From: an uncultured bacterium
Lineage (GTDB): Bacteria > Cyanobacteriota > Vampirovibrionia > Gastranaerophilales > Gastranaerophilaceae
Assembly: GCA_949296355.1 (NCBI GenBank)
Contig: CASFPS010000001.1
Span: 1-64,000, forward strand
Reading direction: 5' to 3'
DNA length: 64,000 bases
How positions within the stretch are numbered: position 1 is the stretch's first letter; every line of letters starts with the position of its first letter. Of this stretch, positions 1-61,797 are shown in pieces. The position numbers were made by a program, and so were the translations under genes. A model generated the notes under the pieces. That model searched no databases and was not told the origin of the DNA. It saw only the letters and a program-made list of their open reading frames with translations.

Positions 1-290
1 TCACCCCTACCCCCTCTCCCACAAGGGGGAGAGGGGAATAAACCGACCAACCCTTCACCCTACTCACTTTTCTATTCCGTTGGGAACGCTGACGCTTTTC
101 TTAGCCTGGGGTTAGTGATTGGTAAGATTCCGAAACAAGTTCGGGATGACAGCAATACTGGCGAGCCTGTTACGTGGTTTGAGAAGGTTTTAGAGATTCT
201 TCGGACTGACGTCCTCTGAATGACGGCACTCTTGTGAATAAAAACTACAAGAAATATCGGTCGGGCTTTAGCCTGACCGATGATAGACTT
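1..290. repeat. Intergenic mosaic of dispersed repeat fragments
   Basis: No convincing gene lies here. The first 40 bases form a C-rich/G-rich hairpin (CCCCTCTCCC with GGGAGAGGGG). Bases 192-227 match one half of the inverted-repeat element found complete at 24122-24255 and 43829-43966 (AGATTCTTCGG ... GAATGACGGC). Bases 262-285 hold a small hairpin (GGTCGGGCT / AGCCTGACC) that recurs at about 60345-60365. The open frame over 234-446 spans repeat DNA and a terminator and is not credible. Confidence 0.6.
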
Positions 291-23321: not shown

Positions 23322-24089
23322 ATGTCTGAAAAAATAGATAAGGCAATGAGCCTTTTTAAGGAACGCAAGTACGAAGAAGCAATAGACGCATTCAGCTCCG
23401 TACTGGAAACAGAACCTGATAATGCGGATGTGTATAACAATATGGGTGTTGCCTATTCCTGTCTCGGAAACTTTGAACAGGCAGAGAAGTTTTACACAAG
23501 AGCAATCGAACTGGATCCTGAGTTAGCTCAGGCATATATAAACCTTTCTGATTTGTATTACAAAGCCGGTGATATACCGTCGGCTCTCGGAACTTTGCAG
23601 CGCGGAAGCTATGAATTACCGGAAAATCTTGCTATTGCGCATCTTCTTGCAAGAGTTTATATTGAAGATCAAAGATGGGAAGACGCTATTGTAGAATTGG
23701 AAAGAGTTCTGGATGGTGAACCTGAAAACTATGATGCGTATTATGATTTAGGGCATGTGTATTTTGAACTCGGAGATTATGAGAGTGCAATATCTAATTT
23801 TGAAAATGTAATTGAGTATAAAGAAAATAACGAACTTCTATACTACGCGCTTGCTCAGGCGTATGAGGCTAATAATGAGATTGATAAAGCAATTTCTAAT
23901 TATTTAAAGGCAATTGCCGTTAATGATAAATTTACCCTTGCTTATAAGAAAGTCGGAATACTCTTTCTTGCAAGAGAAGATTATGAGGACGCAATTGAGT
24001 ATTTTGAGGATTATATAAATTTTGATATTCCGGAATCGGAAAAAGAGAGTGTCTCAAAACTGATAGAAAGAATAAAAGCCCGGGGGTAA
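23322..24089 (+). CDS. Tetratricopeptide repeat protein
   Basis: A 255-residue protein made almost wholly of TPR units (about six), for example NADVYNNMGVAYSCLGNFEQAEKFYTRAIELDP. There is no signal peptide, so it is likely a cytoplasmic scaffold. It begins directly after the lptA stop and shares that operon. Its last codons (ARG, stop) are formed by a GGGGTAAATG repeat core, so the C-terminus may have been altered by repeat insertion. Confidence 0.85.
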   Translation: MSEKIDKAMSLFKERKYEEAIDAFSSVLETEPDNADVYNNMGVAYSCLGNFEQAEKFYTRAIELDPELAQAYINLSDLYYKAGDIPSALGTLQRGSYELPENLAIAHLLARVYIEDQRWEDAIVELERVLDGEPENYDAYYDLGHVYFELGDYESAISNFENVIEYKENNELLYYALAQAYEANNEIDKAISNYLKAIAVNDKFTLAYKKVGILFLAREDYEDAIEYFEDYINFDIPESEKESVSKLIERIKARG

Positions 24090-24121
24090 ATGTTCGGGCT
24101 GGTATTGAAACTTACCAATGT

Positions 24122-24255
24122 GCCGTCATTCAGAAGGCGTTAGCTCGAAGAATCTCTATAACTTATGAAAATTTCTATTCACGATTCACTCCTCACTATT
24201 CACTAGTTAAAGAGATTCTTCGCGCCTGAATGGTTATTGCGCTCAGAATGACGGC
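24122..24255. mobile_element. MITE-like inverted-repeat element, copy 1
   Basis: A 134-base element with perfect ends GCCGTCATTC / GAATGACGGC and inner inverted CGAAGAATCTCT / AGAGATTCTTCG. The core is an inverted heptad array (ATTCACT units). Copy 2 is at 43829-43966. It encodes nothing. Confidence 0.7.
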
Positions 24256-24765
24256 AATCCGGTTTAACGCTAATTGAGCGCGGCTGCTTCTGCCCCCCTT
24301 GCGGGGGAAGCGGATTTGCGGACGGACGACACGAACGTTAGTGAGGTAGTCCGGATAGCGAGCAAAGCGAACAGACAGGAGCTCTGCTCCGAAAGTGAGA
24401 TTTTGCGAGCGTGGAGCAAATCCAAGACAGTGACCGGAGGTCGTAGGGGGGATTGGTTTTCAGCCCCGCACCCACATCCGTAAATTTTGCCTGACGGCTC
24501 AAGCTGGTTCGGATGGGGATTAGCTTTGACTGAACCCCACCCGCATTTGTAGCTCACTGGCGTTCGCACAACTGCGACCTCCCCAACTTGGGAGGTAAGC
24601 GCGATTATCGGGCGTTGGTAATGTGTTAATTGAGCGACAACGCGCGTTCCTTCCCTATATGAGGGAAGGATAGGATGGGTGATTGAACTGTCGCTCCAAA
24701 ATATGTAGGATGCGGTAAATCAAAGATTTACCGCATCAAAAAATTCCCCCGGCATTAACTTTTTA

Positions 24766-43277: not shown

Positions 43278-43360
43278 TTCAACCCTTTTTGTGAACACTC
43301 TTTAGTATTAATTTAATTAAAGTTTACAATTTGAAAAGAGATAGGAGTTGAACGCGCAGC

Positions 43361-43747
43361 TGTCGTCCGATTAACGCGTTCTCTGCGCCCGATAAACGCG
43401 TTTACCTCCCAAGTTGGGGAGGTCGCAGTTGTGCGAACGCCAGTGAGCTACAAATGCGGGTGGGGTTCAAACAACGTCCCCCCCCTCCCTAACCCTTCCC
43501 GGGGGTAAATATCTTGGTATGTGATACTACAAGCAGGAGGTTTTTGCAGAGAGAGAGAATGCACACTGTCGTTCAATTATTCCAGCCCCTCTCCCTAACC
43601 CTCTCCCCAAAGGGGCGAGGGAACACGCTTTGTCGTCCGATTAACGCGTTCTCTGCGCCAGATAAACGCGCTTACCTCCCAAGTTGGGGAGGTCGCAGTT
43701 GTGCGAACGCCAGTGAGCTACAAATGCGGGCGGGGTTCAAACAACGT
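43361..43747. repeat. Two direct copies of a 117-base repeat, 270 bases apart
   Basis: 43361-43477 and 43631-43747 are nearly identical. Each holds TGTCGTCCGATTAACGCGTT, the hairpin ACCTCCCAAGTTGGGGAGGT and the stretch GTGCGAACGCCAGTGAGCTA. Further copies are at 24533-24604 (inverted, partial) and 59843-59965. The DNA between holds C-rich/G-rich hairpins and a piece shared with 10186-10215. The open frame 43514-43885 is repeat DNA. Confidence 0.8.
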
Positions 43748-43828
43748 AAAGTACCCCCCTACCCCCTTCGGGTACTTCCCCCGCAAGGGGGGCAGAAGCA
43801 GCCGCGCTCAATTAGCGTTAAACAGGAT

Positions 43829-43966
43829 TGTCGTTATTCTGAGCCAGACAGCAATTTAGGGGCGAAGAATCTCTTTAACCAGTGAATAGTGAGGAGTGAA
43901 TAGTGAATAGAAAATTTTAACAAAAGTTAAAGAGATTCTTCGGGCTCACGCCCTCTGAATGACGGC
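43829..43966. mobile_element. MITE-like inverted-repeat element, copy 2
   Basis: Imperfect outer ends GTCGTTATTC / GAATGACGGC enclose perfect inner 17-base inverted repeats (CGAAGAATCTCTTTAAC / GTTAAAGAGATTCTTCG). The core has four heptads (GTGAATA, GTGAGGA, GTGAATA, GTGAATA). It is inverted relative to the core of copy 1 at 24122-24255. Confidence 0.75.
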
Positions 43967-43984
43967 AATCCGGTAAGTCTTAAT

Positions 43985-44296
43985 ACTAACCCGATACATT
44001 TACCCTCGTAATGACACCAAGCTGGTAGACTTACCTACTAACCCGATACATTTACCCTAGTAATGACATCAAGCTGGTAGACTTACCTACTAACCCGATA
44101 CATTTACCCTCGTAATGACATCAAGCTGGTAGACTTACCTACTAACCCGATACATTTACCCTCGTAATGACACCAAGCTGGTAGACTTACCTACTAACCC
44201 GATACATTTACCCCCGCAATAACGCAAATCCGGTAGACTTTCCTCAAAGCCCGATACATTTACCCCCAAAAACTGTAGACTTACCTGCCAGTCAAA
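43985..44296. repeat. 52-base tandem array
   Basis: Five near-identical units starting at 43985, 44037, 44089, 44141 and 44193, then a degenerate sixth at 44245. Each reads ACTAACCCGATACATTTACC, a C-rich link, GTAATGACA.CAAGCTGGTA and GACTTACCT. There are no variable spacers, so it is not a CRISPR array. The reverse complement contains GGGTAAATG and the array runs into the stop codon of comM. Confidence 0.9.
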
Positions 44297-44302
44297 ATCC
44301 AT

Positions 44303-45835
44303 TTACCCCTTAGAGCTTTCATTGCTGCGATATTGCAAAGCCTGGGTTACATGCTCAATAGAAATATTTTCTTTTCCATCTAAATCAGCAATTGTTCTTG
44401 CAAGTTTTAATATTCTTGAATACTTTCTGCCTGATAGCTGGAATTTTTGCGCCGCAAGTTTCAAAAATTCCGTAGTTTTTTCATCAGTTTTACAAAAGAT
44501 TTTAATCTGAGCGGCATTTAACTCGGAATTTGTAAAAATTCCCTCGTTTTTGTAGCGTTCAGCCTGAATTTCTCTTGCTCTGATTACCCGCTCTCTTATT
44601 TTTGAAGAAGGCTCGCCTTCGGCTTTTGTATTAATAAGCTCATCCGTTGTCAGTCTCGGAACATCAATTATCAAATCAATTCTATCCAGAAGCGGTCCGG
44701 ATAATTTTGAACGGTATCTCTGTATCTGGAATTCAGAGCAGGTGCATTGTTTTTCTTTGTCTCCGAGATATCCGCAAGGACAAGGATTCATTGCCCCGAC
44801 CAGAATAAATCTTGCGGGATATTTTATAGAGGTTTTTGCCCTTGATATAACAACTTCTCCATCTTCAAGCGGCTGCCTTAAGACTTCTAATACCTGCCGC
44901 GGAAATTCAACCATTTCATCCAGAAACAACACTCCCCGATGAGCCAGTGTAATCTCTCCGGGTTTCGGATTCGTACCTCCTCCTATTATGCCGTTCGGTG
45001 AAGCCGTATGGTGTACTGCTCTAAAAGGTCTATGTACCATAAGCGGATTGTCTTTTGATAATAAACCGCAAATGCTGTAAATTTTAGTAAGTTCAAAAGC
45101 TTCTTTTAATTGAAGCGGCGGAAGAATTGACGCCAGACATTTTGCCATCATCGTTTTTCCCGACCCGGGAGAACCTGACATAAGGATATTATGTCCGCCT
45201 GCTGCTGCAATTTCCAGAGCTTTTTTTGCTTTTTGCTGTCCTTTTACATCCTTAAAATCATAAATATAGTCTTTATCGGCATTGTCTTTAAGATATTGAT
45301 GTATATCAACAACCGTGGGTGCTATCGGAGTTTCTGCAAAATGATTGACAATATCTCCTAAATGTTTTGCCCCGAAAACTTTTATATCCTGTACAAGCGC
45401 TGCTTCTCTGGCGTTTTCTTCCGGCACAAATACCGTTTTTATTCCGCACTCTTTTAATCCGCTCACAAGCGGAAGAATTCCGTTAACTTTTCTTACCGAA
45501 CCGTCAAGCGAGAGTTCGCCCAGAAAAGCAGTAGTATTGTCATCCGGAATATCAATCCCCTGTTCTTTTAAAATTCCGACTGCAATCGGAAGATCAAAGT
45601 TTGTACCTTCTTTCCTTATATCAGCAGGCGCAAGATTAACAATCACCTTGCCTGTCGGGAAAGAAAATCCTGAATTCTTTATAGCAGAATGAACCCTCTC
45701 TCTTGCCTCGTTAACGGAACTATCAGGCAGCCCGACAATACTGACACCCGGAAGAGAGTTTGTTACATCGACTTCCACTTCTATTTTGCAGGAATTAATT
45801 CCAAAGGTTGTTGCAGTAATAGCTTTTGTAACCAT
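44303..45835 (-). CDS. comM: YifB/ComM family Mg-chelatase-like AAA ATPase
   Basis: A hexameric helicase that in Vibrio promotes branch migration during natural transformation. The 510 residues show the N-terminal Lon-like domain (SIVGLPDSSVNEARERVHSAI), Walker A GSPGSGKTMMAKCLASILP, the VHRPFRAVHHTASPNGIIGGG block, Walker B LFLDEMVEF and the C-terminal DLDGKENI. Its last codons (SSKG, stop) are formed by the CATTTACCCC repeat core on the plus strand. There is no Shine-Dalgarno; TATAAT is six bases before ATG. Confidence 0.94.
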   Translation of the reverse strand: MVTKAITATTFGINSCKIEVEVDVTNSLPGVSIVGLPDSSVNEARERVHSAIKNSGFSFPTGKVIVNLAPADIRKEGTNFDLPIAVGILKEQGIDIPDDNTTAFLGELSLDGSVRKVNGILPLVSGLKECGIKTVFVPEENAREAALVQDIKVFGAKHLGDIVNHFAETPIAPTVVDIHQYLKDNADKDYIYDFKDVKGQQKAKKALEIAAAGGHNILMSGSPGSGKTMMAKCLASILPPLQLKEAFELTKIYSICGLLSKDNPLMVHRPFRAVHHTASPNGIIGGGTNPKPGEITLAHRGVLFLDEMVEFPRQVLEVLRQPLEDGEVVISRAKTSIKYPARFILVGAMNPCPCGYLGDKEKQCTCSEFQIQRYRSKLSGPLLDRIDLIIDVPRLTTDELINTKAEGEPSSKIRERVIRAREIQAERYKNEGIFTNSELNAAQIKIFCKTDEKTTEFLKLAAQKFQLSGRKYSRILKLARTIADLDGKENISIEHVTQALQYRSNESSKG

Positions 45836-59741: not shown

Positions 59742-60507
59742 GGGAAGTTGAAGGTCGGGTGAAACCCGGCAAAAACTTTACAGGAGATAGGTTTTTAAGA
59801 CCATCACCCTTCCTAACCTTCCCTCATATAGGGAAGGAACGCGCTGCCGTCGTTCGATTAATGTCTTCTCCATGCTAAATAACCGCGCTCACCTCCCAAA
59901 TTGGGGAGGTCGCAGTTGTGCGAACGTCAGTGAGCTACAAATGCGGGTGGGGATTAAATAACGTAAAGTACTCCCCCTCCCTAACCCTCCCCGCCGGAGA
60001 GGGAACGCGCGTTGTCGCTCAATTAGCGCATATCCCTCATCCTCTAAAAGCCACGTCATTGCGGGGGTAAATGTTTGGTTTGGTAGGTGAACCTACCAGC
60101 CCGACGTCATTGCGAGGGAACAACCATTTAGCCCGAAGCAATCCGGAACAAATATGACAATTAAATGAAAATGGATTGCCACGGCGCTCTGGCGCCTCGC
60201 AATGACACCCAGCCGGTAAATTCACTTTCCGGAGTTTAGCATTAGGATGTGGTAAATCGAAGACTTACCGCATCTTACTACTAGTTTGTTGTCATTGCGA
60301 GAAAATCTTTGATTTTCGTGGCAATCCATATTGTTATTGTTAGATTTATAGGTCAGGCTTCAGCCCGACAATAACTATAACTTTTTAATATCTCGTCACA
60401 GCATAAGTATGAGCGATATAGTAATTTCTGCAACTTTTTTTTGTATATTTTTGATTTTATACTATGATTAATATTAGAAATAAAATAAAAAAAGATAAGA
60501 GGGGCGT
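59742..60507. repeat. Repeat-filled intergenic region upstream of the M20 peptidase gene
   Basis: About 770 bases without a gene. It holds C-rich hairpins, one copy of the 117-base repeat (59843-59965), a GGGGTAAATG core (60064-60073), the MITE-like element 60106-60206, a family C hairpin (60244-60278), a second half element (60291-60330) and the small hairpin at 60345-60365. The short frame 60037-60225 is repeat DNA. The last 100 bases are AT-rich and probably carry the peptidase promoter. Confidence 0.75.
60106..60206. mobile_element. MITE-like element with perfect 12-base ends
   Basis: Ends GTCATTGCGAGG and CCTCGCAATGAC are exact complements; the inner GCAATCC / GGATTGC also pair. It is 101 bases long and non-coding. 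A half copy is at 34006-34080. Confidence 0.75.
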
Positions 60508-61797
60508 ATGAATTTAAGTGAATTAAGAGCAGAAAACGAGGTTTTGGATATTTTTTGTAATCTGGTTTCAATACCGTCTCCTTCATTAAAGGAAGAAAAG
60601 GTTATTGAATGGATTCTTGATTTTTGTAAGAAAAACGGCATCGAAGGAAGATGTGACGACTACGGAAATGTTTATATAAATGTTCCTGCGACAGATTCTT
60701 CTAAAGAACCTTTGATGTTATCCTCCCATATGGATGTTGTGGGGGATGACAGTCCGGTTAATATTTATCTTGACGGTGATTTTATAAAGGCAGAAGGCAG
60801 AACTCTGGGAGCGGATGATAAGGTTGGTGTTGCTTGCGCTTTGATGCTGGCTAAAGAGTTAACCCCGCCCCTCCCCGCAGGGGAGGGAGTGAATCCTCAT
60901 GGCGGGTTGACACCTCAAGGCGTCCCGCTAAAACATGGCGGGCTTGAAATCACTTTTACCCGTGATGAAGAATCCGGCATGTCAGGTGTTGAGCATGTCG
61001 AGTTTAACAAAATTAAATCAAAGCATATTCTTGTATGCGACGCGGATAAATTAGGTCAATTGCAAATTTCAGGCGCAAGCTACACTAATGCTAAAATTAC
61101 CGTCAGAGGTTTAAAAGGCGGGCACTCGGGAATTGATATCGGGGACGAAACAAGATTAAATGCCGCAAAAATGATAGCGGAATTACTTGCAGAATTTCCT
61201 CAGGGCGCTTATTATTCCGACGAAACAGGTGTTATAACCTCTTGCAATCTGGGCGCAATTGTTGCCGGCGGAATCCAAAACTCTGTTGCGGCAATCGTAG
61301 AAAAAGGAATTAAAACAAACGATTATATCTCAGAGATTATGAAAAAAACTTCTACAAATATTATAAATACTCTTGGGATGGCTTCTTATTCTATAAGAAG
61401 CGCAAGCGTTGAAAAAGAAAATGAATTAAAAAATCTTATGCAGTCTATTGTTGATAAATTTAACGAAAAACATAAAGGTTTAGCAGAAGCTGAGATTGAA
61501 TTTGAAGTTCATCTTCTTCCGTTTGAGAGAGCAAAAGACGACAGAATAGAAAAAGTTCACACTAAAGCATGCGAAAAAGCCGGAATCAAAAACGATATTT
61601 CCTCTTTCCACGCAGGAGCAGAAACTCATATATACTGCCATAACAAAAACGCAGCCGGCGAGACCTTTATGCCTGTACTTCTGGGGCTTGCAGATGTTTA
61701 TAATATGCACTCTGCCGCTGAAAAAGTAGATTACAAAACAATTATTAAAGGTTATGAAGTAATTAAGAATACTTTTGAAGAATTTCAAAATTTTTAA
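60508..61797 (+). CDS. M20 family peptidase (PepT-like) with in-frame repeat insertion
   Basis: A 429-residue dizinc peptidase. Metal and catalytic signatures are SSHMDVVG, GADDKVGVA, FTRDEESGMSG and SFHAGAETHIY. Residues 119-141 (60862-60930), between ALMLAKEL and KHGGLEITF, are not family-like: PPLPAGEGVNPHGG comes from C-rich/G-rich repeat DNA of the kind found between genes here. It lies in a surface loop next to the metal site and keeps the frame, so activity may survive. A Shine-Dalgarno (AAGAGGGG) precedes the gene. Confidence 0.88.
   Translation: MNLSELRAENEVLDIFCNLVSIPSPSLKEEKVIEWILDFCKKNGIEGRCDDYGNVYINVPATDSSKEPLMLSSHMDVVGDDSPVNIYLDGDFIKAEGRTLGADDKVGVACALMLAKELTPPLPAGEGVNPHGGLTPQGVPLKHGGLEITFTRDEESGMSGVEHVEFNKIKSKHILVCDADKLGQLQISGASYTNAKITVRGLKGGHSGIDIGDETRLNAAKMIAELLAEFPQGAYYSDETGVITSCNLGAIVAGGIQNSVAAIVEKGIKTNDYISEIMKKTSTNIINTLGMASYSIRSASVEKENELKNLMQSIVDKFNEKHKGLAEAEIEFEVHLLPFERAKDDRIEKVHTKACEKAGIKNDISSFHAGAETHIYCHNKNAAGETFMPVLLGLADVYNMHSAAEKVDYKTIIKGYEVIKNTFEEFQNF
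60862..60930. repeat. Dispersed repeat inserted inside the M20 gene
   Basis: A 69-base segment with the hairpin CCCCTCCCC/GGGGAGGG. CATGGCGGG occurs within it (60898-60906) and again just after it (60934-60942), which looks like a short duplication. Confidence 0.6.

Follow-up and report, generated by a model that had tools for sequence, protein, structure and literature searches.

Palindromic repeats of several families appear to have landed in protein-coding genes of a Gastranaerophilales genome and its relatives and to have persisted in tolerant surface loops, where the added peptide would be mostly neutral; we give this reading a probability of roughly 0.8. The clearest case was an M20-family peptidase gene in the window (the whole 64,000-nt stretch analysed), for which the first-pass annotation had proposed the in-frame entry of a dispersed intergenic palindrome, a claim that consensus scores and orthologue alignment bore out. 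The window came from a 2.09-Mb Gastranaerophilales genome of 41 contigs, closest in the public genome collection to Candidatus Gastranaerophilales bins, and this genome was searched and sampled by stretches.

The M20 gene and the anatomy of its insert

The features of the gene and its insert were as follows.

60508..61797, + strand: M20-family metallopeptidase gene (PepD/PepT-like), 429 aa, host of the insert
60862..60888, + strand: family-B palindromic repeat core, read TPPLPAGEG (residues 119-127), from orthologue alignment and consensus scan
60869..60887, no strand assigned: perfect 19-bp palindrome CCCTCCCCGCAGGGGAGGG, from palindrome search
60898..60906, + strand: direct repeat CATGGCGGG, copy 1 (HGG, residues 131-133), perhaps a target-site duplication
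60907..60933, + strand: second inserted piece TTGACACCTCAAGGCGTCCCGCTAAAA (LTPQGVPLK), from orthologue alignment and genome search
60934..60942, + strand: direct repeat CATGGCGGG, copy 2 (HGG, residues 143-145), from orthologue alignment

The gene product matched Pfam PF01546 (E 9e-9), its top NCBIfam matches were beta-Ala-His dipeptidase/PepT-like with scores under the curated cut-offs, and the nearest solved folds were PepT 3gb0 (E 1.5e-28) and the Xaa-His dipeptidase 2qyv. Residues H74, D76, D103, E154, E155 and H401 were invariant among 39 orthologues, as were the HMD, GADDK and DEE motifs, which indicated that the M20 metal-binding and catalytic residues were present. The codons flanking the insert had a dN/dS of 0.03-0.07, with dS reaching about 1 between insert-bearing species; the enzyme was therefore apparently functional with the insert, and the insertion old. 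These rates pointed to strong purifying selection on the enzyme.

The segment from GADDK to DEES comprised 56 residues in the window gene vs 38-42 in most orthologues of the genus, and the alignment gave 38-42 for distant relatives (52-58% identity) as well. The net gain was 14-18 residues and not 23, as the orthologues possess about 5-9 variable residues of their own in this loop. The first-pass annotation had read 60862-60930 as a single 69-nt, 23-residue hairpin insert; its extra codons between GADDK and DEES were found on alignment, but 23 residues amount to nearly the whole loop. Likewise, 60862-60888 was hairpin-derived, with a GC content of 0.81 vs 0.39 for the whole gene, but 60907-60942 was a separate 36-nt insertion, in which 27 nt of new sequence lay between 9-bp direct repeats. 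Together, these comparisons suggested that the insert is composite, made of 27 nt of hairpin DNA and a separate 36-nt insertion.

The palindrome DNA of family B in the genome read ACCCCCTCCCTAACCCTCCCCGNNGGAGAGGGA. Sister species retained the full 33-nt core (TPSPTLPAGEG), and the window copy had lost 6 nt, leaving the perfect 19-bp palindrome. The second piece was common to the window and L007/L086 and absent in L008/L036/L037/L038. It was considered as a dispersed repeat and rejected: a genome search tolerating up to 3 mismatches found its first 22 nt a single time, and its likeness to a repeat was confined to the first 11 nt, which equal the start of family A (with the flank included, 13 nt were common with L150). 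The 9-bp direct repeat flanked this second piece only, and no target-site duplication was recognised around the palindrome copy in M20. The insertion had no clean empty site; a small number of the loop's original codons were apparently lost, and its ends are approximate.

Position of the insert in the predicted structure

An AlphaFold2 model built with 39 orthologues gave a mean pLDDT of 87 for the M20 protein and placed the insert in an unstructured loop with a pLDDT of about 50, which follows helix 102-118 and precedes strand 146-151. Because the helix starts at the metal-site GADDK and the loop lies at its far end, the insert probably faces away from the active site. Within the 11-codon insert core, 5 codons varied silently and 2 by replacement (Fisher p = 0.016); the numbers are small, and this silent excess is a hint of some constraint on the peptide that would count against neutrality. 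A 45-nt segment of the insert was predicted to form a strong mRNA hairpin (-25.5 kcal/mol), as would suit a hairpin that is never translated, whether bypassed by the ribosome or removed from the RNA. Such an explanation was very improbable, given that the frame was intact, that it held zero stops, and that silent changes outnumbered replacements as expected of translated DNA.

Dispersed repeats in the window and the genome

Copies of the hairpin had been proposed earlier at 1-40, 43585-43620 and 59980-60005, and the repeat search recovered all three; the last corresponded to a family-B copy at about 59971-60007, within the cluster upstream of the M20 gene.

12..33, no strand assigned: intergenic hairpin copy CCCTCTCCCACAAGGGGGAGAG, family-C-like, from repeat search
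43586..43616, + strand: intergenic hairpin copy CCCCTCTCCCTAACCCTCTCCCCAAAGGGGC, from repeat search
43754..43796, no strand assigned: intergenic repeat with a 43-nt identical copy inside the CoaBC gene of the genome (100% over 43 nt, E 9e-19)
59803..60341, no strand assigned: intergenic cluster of dispersed repeats directly upstream of the M20 gene, from repeat search

A loose palindrome pattern matched 36 times per strand in the 2.09-Mb genome (some matches overlapping) vs once in a reversed control. In the window, Rfam gave no match at gathering thresholds. Several dispersed repeat families made up dense mosaics between genes at 24083-24743, 43350-44309 and 59803-60341 of the window, with CCTCCCAAGTTGGGGAGGT and GTCATTGCGAG..GCAATCC types among them.

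Three consensus scans of 90 M20 genes had their top matches all in the same loop. The top scores were 30/31 for family B, 32/36 for family A and 35/35 for family C vs shuffle maxima of 19, 21 and 20, respectively; consensus C was partly modelled on the inserts, and its independent support came from matches to the genomes' own intergenic copies. The M20 insert of G016 matched such a family-C copy at 41/41 nt, and that of G008 a family-A copy at 40/42 nt. For family B, L038 scored 30/31, L037 29/31, L007 27/31 and L008 26/31, compared with a best background score of 15 per gene and with shuffles that never exceeded 19; the window copy reached only 20/31 because of the 6 nt that it had lost.

Long M20 loops in which no repeat was recognisable occurred in L073, L080 and L081, indicating that this loop also grows by other means. 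They would fit a drift of loop length by slippage and point mutation, the likeness to repeats being due to chance. We consider that account scarcely credible for the inserts at issue, in view of scores far above those of shuffled sequences and of 41-43 nt stretches that matched intergenic repeats in their own genome perfectly. Long matches of this kind contradicted a chance likeness for families A, B and C.

Distribution and independent origins in M20

The window, L007/L086, L008/L036, L037 and L038 all had the peptide TP.PTLPAGEG, in some cases truncated or with small changes. In the tree, these family-B insert bearers formed a clade (support 100/99) whose nearest sisters lacked this peptide. 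The insert was confined to this clade, and other families carrying the same loop, as expected had it been ancestral, were not found; the family-B insert thus appears to be clade-specific rather than ancestral, and old, judging from a dS of about 1 across the clade. The insert might be thought an assembly artefact, since the genomes of the relatives were binned from metagenomes and repeats are easily misassembled. Its recurrence in separate bins and in different species whose silent sites had diverged (L007, L008/L036, L037, L038) left that explanation hardly any probability.

A second clade held family A in L020, L022 and L024, family C in L058 and L066, and a variant of family B in L025, with insert-free species interspersed among these bearers in the tree. 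The sister rows L024 and L058 bore A and C, respectively, in the M20 loop. An AU test rejected a single clade for all M20 inserts (p = 0.00023), and the placement of the second group's six palindromic rows in one clade was weakly rejected (p = 0.042); the groups were named after the tree had been seen, which weakens the second test in particular. As families A, B and C resemble each other, conversion of one resident repeat by another may have occurred within the second clade. Overall, the tree and the tests indicated that the M20 loop inserts arose independently at least twice, and probably three or more times.

The same process in other genes

In PrmC, the window's genome (G000) and G019 had a 12-residue net insert LTPHPDPLLKERE of family A, which in the window's genome was about 97% identical over 36 nt to an intergenic copy. 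The PrmC of G002 (L219) had a different insert, APRPNPPLSGRE / MAPRPNPPLSGRE, in the same loop, and the other PrmC orthologues read from the genus had 33 residues at the insert segment. The PrmC of G048 (L241), from another family, had RHSERSEESK in this loop, which resembles the peptide of another common dispersed repeat.

In CoaBC, the segment from NPDIL to GFCAES comprised 22-25 residues in insert-free species vs 35-110 residues of differing sequence in seven genomes of the genus. Dispersed repeats were contained in the inserts of two CoaBC genes on pairwise comparison.

L264 (G000:C6:63777-65189): CoaBC gene with dispersed-repeat-containing insert
L247 (G019:C25): CoaBC gene with dispersed-repeat-containing insert

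The first of these inserts included the 43-nt identical copy of the repeat at 43754-43796. Outside the loop, the two proteins agreed at 296/300 and 75/76 residues (98-99% identical), and their loop inserts, of 68 and 88 residues, were unrelated and partly made of dispersed repeats. Both started with KLSPL and then diverged completely. This comparison suggests that the insertion process is recent. The CoaBC genes of G011 and G008 had single-copy inserts in otherwise short loops.

The CoaBC and M20 comparisons also bear on whether insertion is directed, in that a first palindrome would be a preferred target into which later repeats insert or with which they recombine, nesting and gene conversion then producing composite, fast-changing loops. 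This is possible, though we lean against it. It would be consistent with the composite inserts in M20 (with its 9-bp direct repeats) and CoaBC, with the common KLSPL start of two CoaBC inserts between near-identical flanks, with families A and C in the sister rows L024 and L058, and with REPs nested in palindromes, which are on record from other bacteria (PMC3733652). However, no common target sequence was established, several inserts such as those of the G011 and G008 CoaBC genes were single copies, and loop tolerance alone could yield the same pattern. That the M20, CoaBC and PrmC loops are true insertion hot spots, their resident palindromes attracting several repeat families, is a tentative and rather unlikely proposal; if it were true, the continuing movement of repeats would remodel surface loops of essential enzymes within the time that strains take to diverge.

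The same comparisons made it doubtful that the added proline-rich peptides are kept because they are useful, for example in protein contacts or stability. The insert core was conserved across a dS of about 1, with the silent excess given above, as would be expected of a useful peptide. However, the same loop held unrelated peptides in sister species, the CoaBC inserts differed wholly at about 1% protein divergence, and many species had no insert at all.

Three further genes contained repeat-derived segments; these cases rest on the repeat peptide and the surrounding Pfam matches.

L319 (G000:C5:75500-79500), ORF 1321-2994, + strand: MnmE with repeat-derived segments in its N-terminal domain (ELTPPPNPLPQGAGE, SITQSLNH-type repeats)
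L249 (G011:C1:60000-63000): LpxK with family-B insert SPSLTLPAGEGTR
L260 (G009:C8:5800-7100): ABC-2 permease with a repeat in the opposite orientation, KLPSPLEGEGLGVRGT

Some candidates were discarded: L165 (G013) lay upstream of the rplK start and was rejected as an insertion, and the ORFs of L251, L254-L258 and L262 (G019) appear to be spurious reading frames that run across intergenic repeats. In UvrD-like helicase and AAA-ATPase ORFs of 1344 and 1244 residues (L253, G029:C131; L248, G016:C36), repeat peptides lay outside the recognised domains.

Proposed mechanism and relation to known elements

The mechanism that we favour is the landing of repeats in genes and their persistence in tolerant loops. 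We infer a route of repeat movement along the following lines, in which the insert would be translated, its peptide retained in the mature protein and its effect neutral. Several non-coding palindromic repeat families of about 33-43 bp would spread in the genus, now and then landing in genes. The repeat core is open in several frames, and its length is often near a multiple of three, so that some insertions would stay in frame. Selection would purge most intragenic insertions and leave those in flexible surface loops, of which the M20 loop described above would be one. Family B may have entered this loop before the window's species and its near relatives diverged; the window lineage would later have lost 6 nt of its copy, and the loop would then have gained the second, 36-nt piece. 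In other lineages, this loop would have gained family A or C. The added residues would be translated and mostly neutral.

Rickettsia palindromic elements (RPEs) are dispersed palindromes found between genes and in frame within conserved protein genes, to which they add peptides (PMC3733652). The repeats described here were likewise intergenic and in frame inside conserved genes, adding peptides: dispersed palindromes were multi-copy in the window's genome, and in-frame copies lay in conserved genes (M20, PrmC, CoaBC) whose orthologues lack them, both being features by which RPEs are recognised. The comparison with RPEs made in the first-pass annotation was therefore apt, the insert occupying a low-confidence loop position and the same process being seen in other genes of the genome. 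The repeats differed from RPEs in coming from a different bacterial phylum and in the presence of several families in the same loop of sister species. In the copies inspected, they also had no CGTC end tag as reported for RPE-4/RPE-6.

Intragenic GTAG/CGTC REPs are palindromes of 20-40 bp in housekeeping genes, single or in clusters that encode up to 82 residues (Di Nocera et al. 2013, PMC3733652). They have been described from O. terrae and elsewhere, in some cases with two insertions in a single gene, and recB of two Xanthomonas species has different REPs at about the same site (PMC3733652). Neither GTAG nor CGTC was present at the stem end in about 35 copies whose flanks were inspected by eye, and for want of these end tags the repeats were not filed in the RPE or GTAG/CGTC REP families. 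The hosts of GTAG/CGTC REPs include many DNA synthesis and repair genes, whereas those found here were M20, CoaBC, PrmC, MnmE and LpxK; in further contrast to those REPs, recurrence was traced here across dozens of sister genomes. By analogy, the repeats would work in the same way as RPEs and intragenic REPs. A search of the open-licence literature found nothing relevant on the insert peptides or on palindromes in Gastranaerophilales. What is unusual is that several families have colonised the same loops time and again in sister species, together with the unrelated inserts in near-identical CoaBC genes.

These findings add a clade of gut relatives of the cyanobacteria to Rickettsia and the few REP-rich bacteria in which palindromes insert in frame. 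They also provide replicated cases, in which one enzyme loop holds different repeats in sister species, and such cases open the question of whether the sites at which selfish repeats turn into protein are set by targeting of the insertion or by selection for loops that tolerate it.

One gene for a REP-associated tyrosine transposase (RAYT) was found in the genome (NF047646, 145 bits).

L156:1357-1893 (G000:C5:68236-68769): RAYT gene, with palindrome TTGTTGGGCAGGTATGCCCAACCGACAA directly upstream

In having a RAYT gene, the genome resembled those with REPtrons or RAYT-mobilised REPs. Unlike in those systems, this gene was flanked by a TTGTTGGGCAGG..CCAACCGACAA palindrome, and the CCCTCCCC families were not adjacent. 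RAYT as the mobiliser of families A-C was thus unsupported, since the adjoining repeat belongs to a different family, and no mobiliser for families A-C was found, this being the sole RAYT in the genome. A near-copy of TTGTTGGGCAGGTATGCCCAACCGACAA lay in frame inside the RAYT coding sequence itself (NVGQVCPTDDL) and was present in the orthologues L290, L293 and L294 as well.
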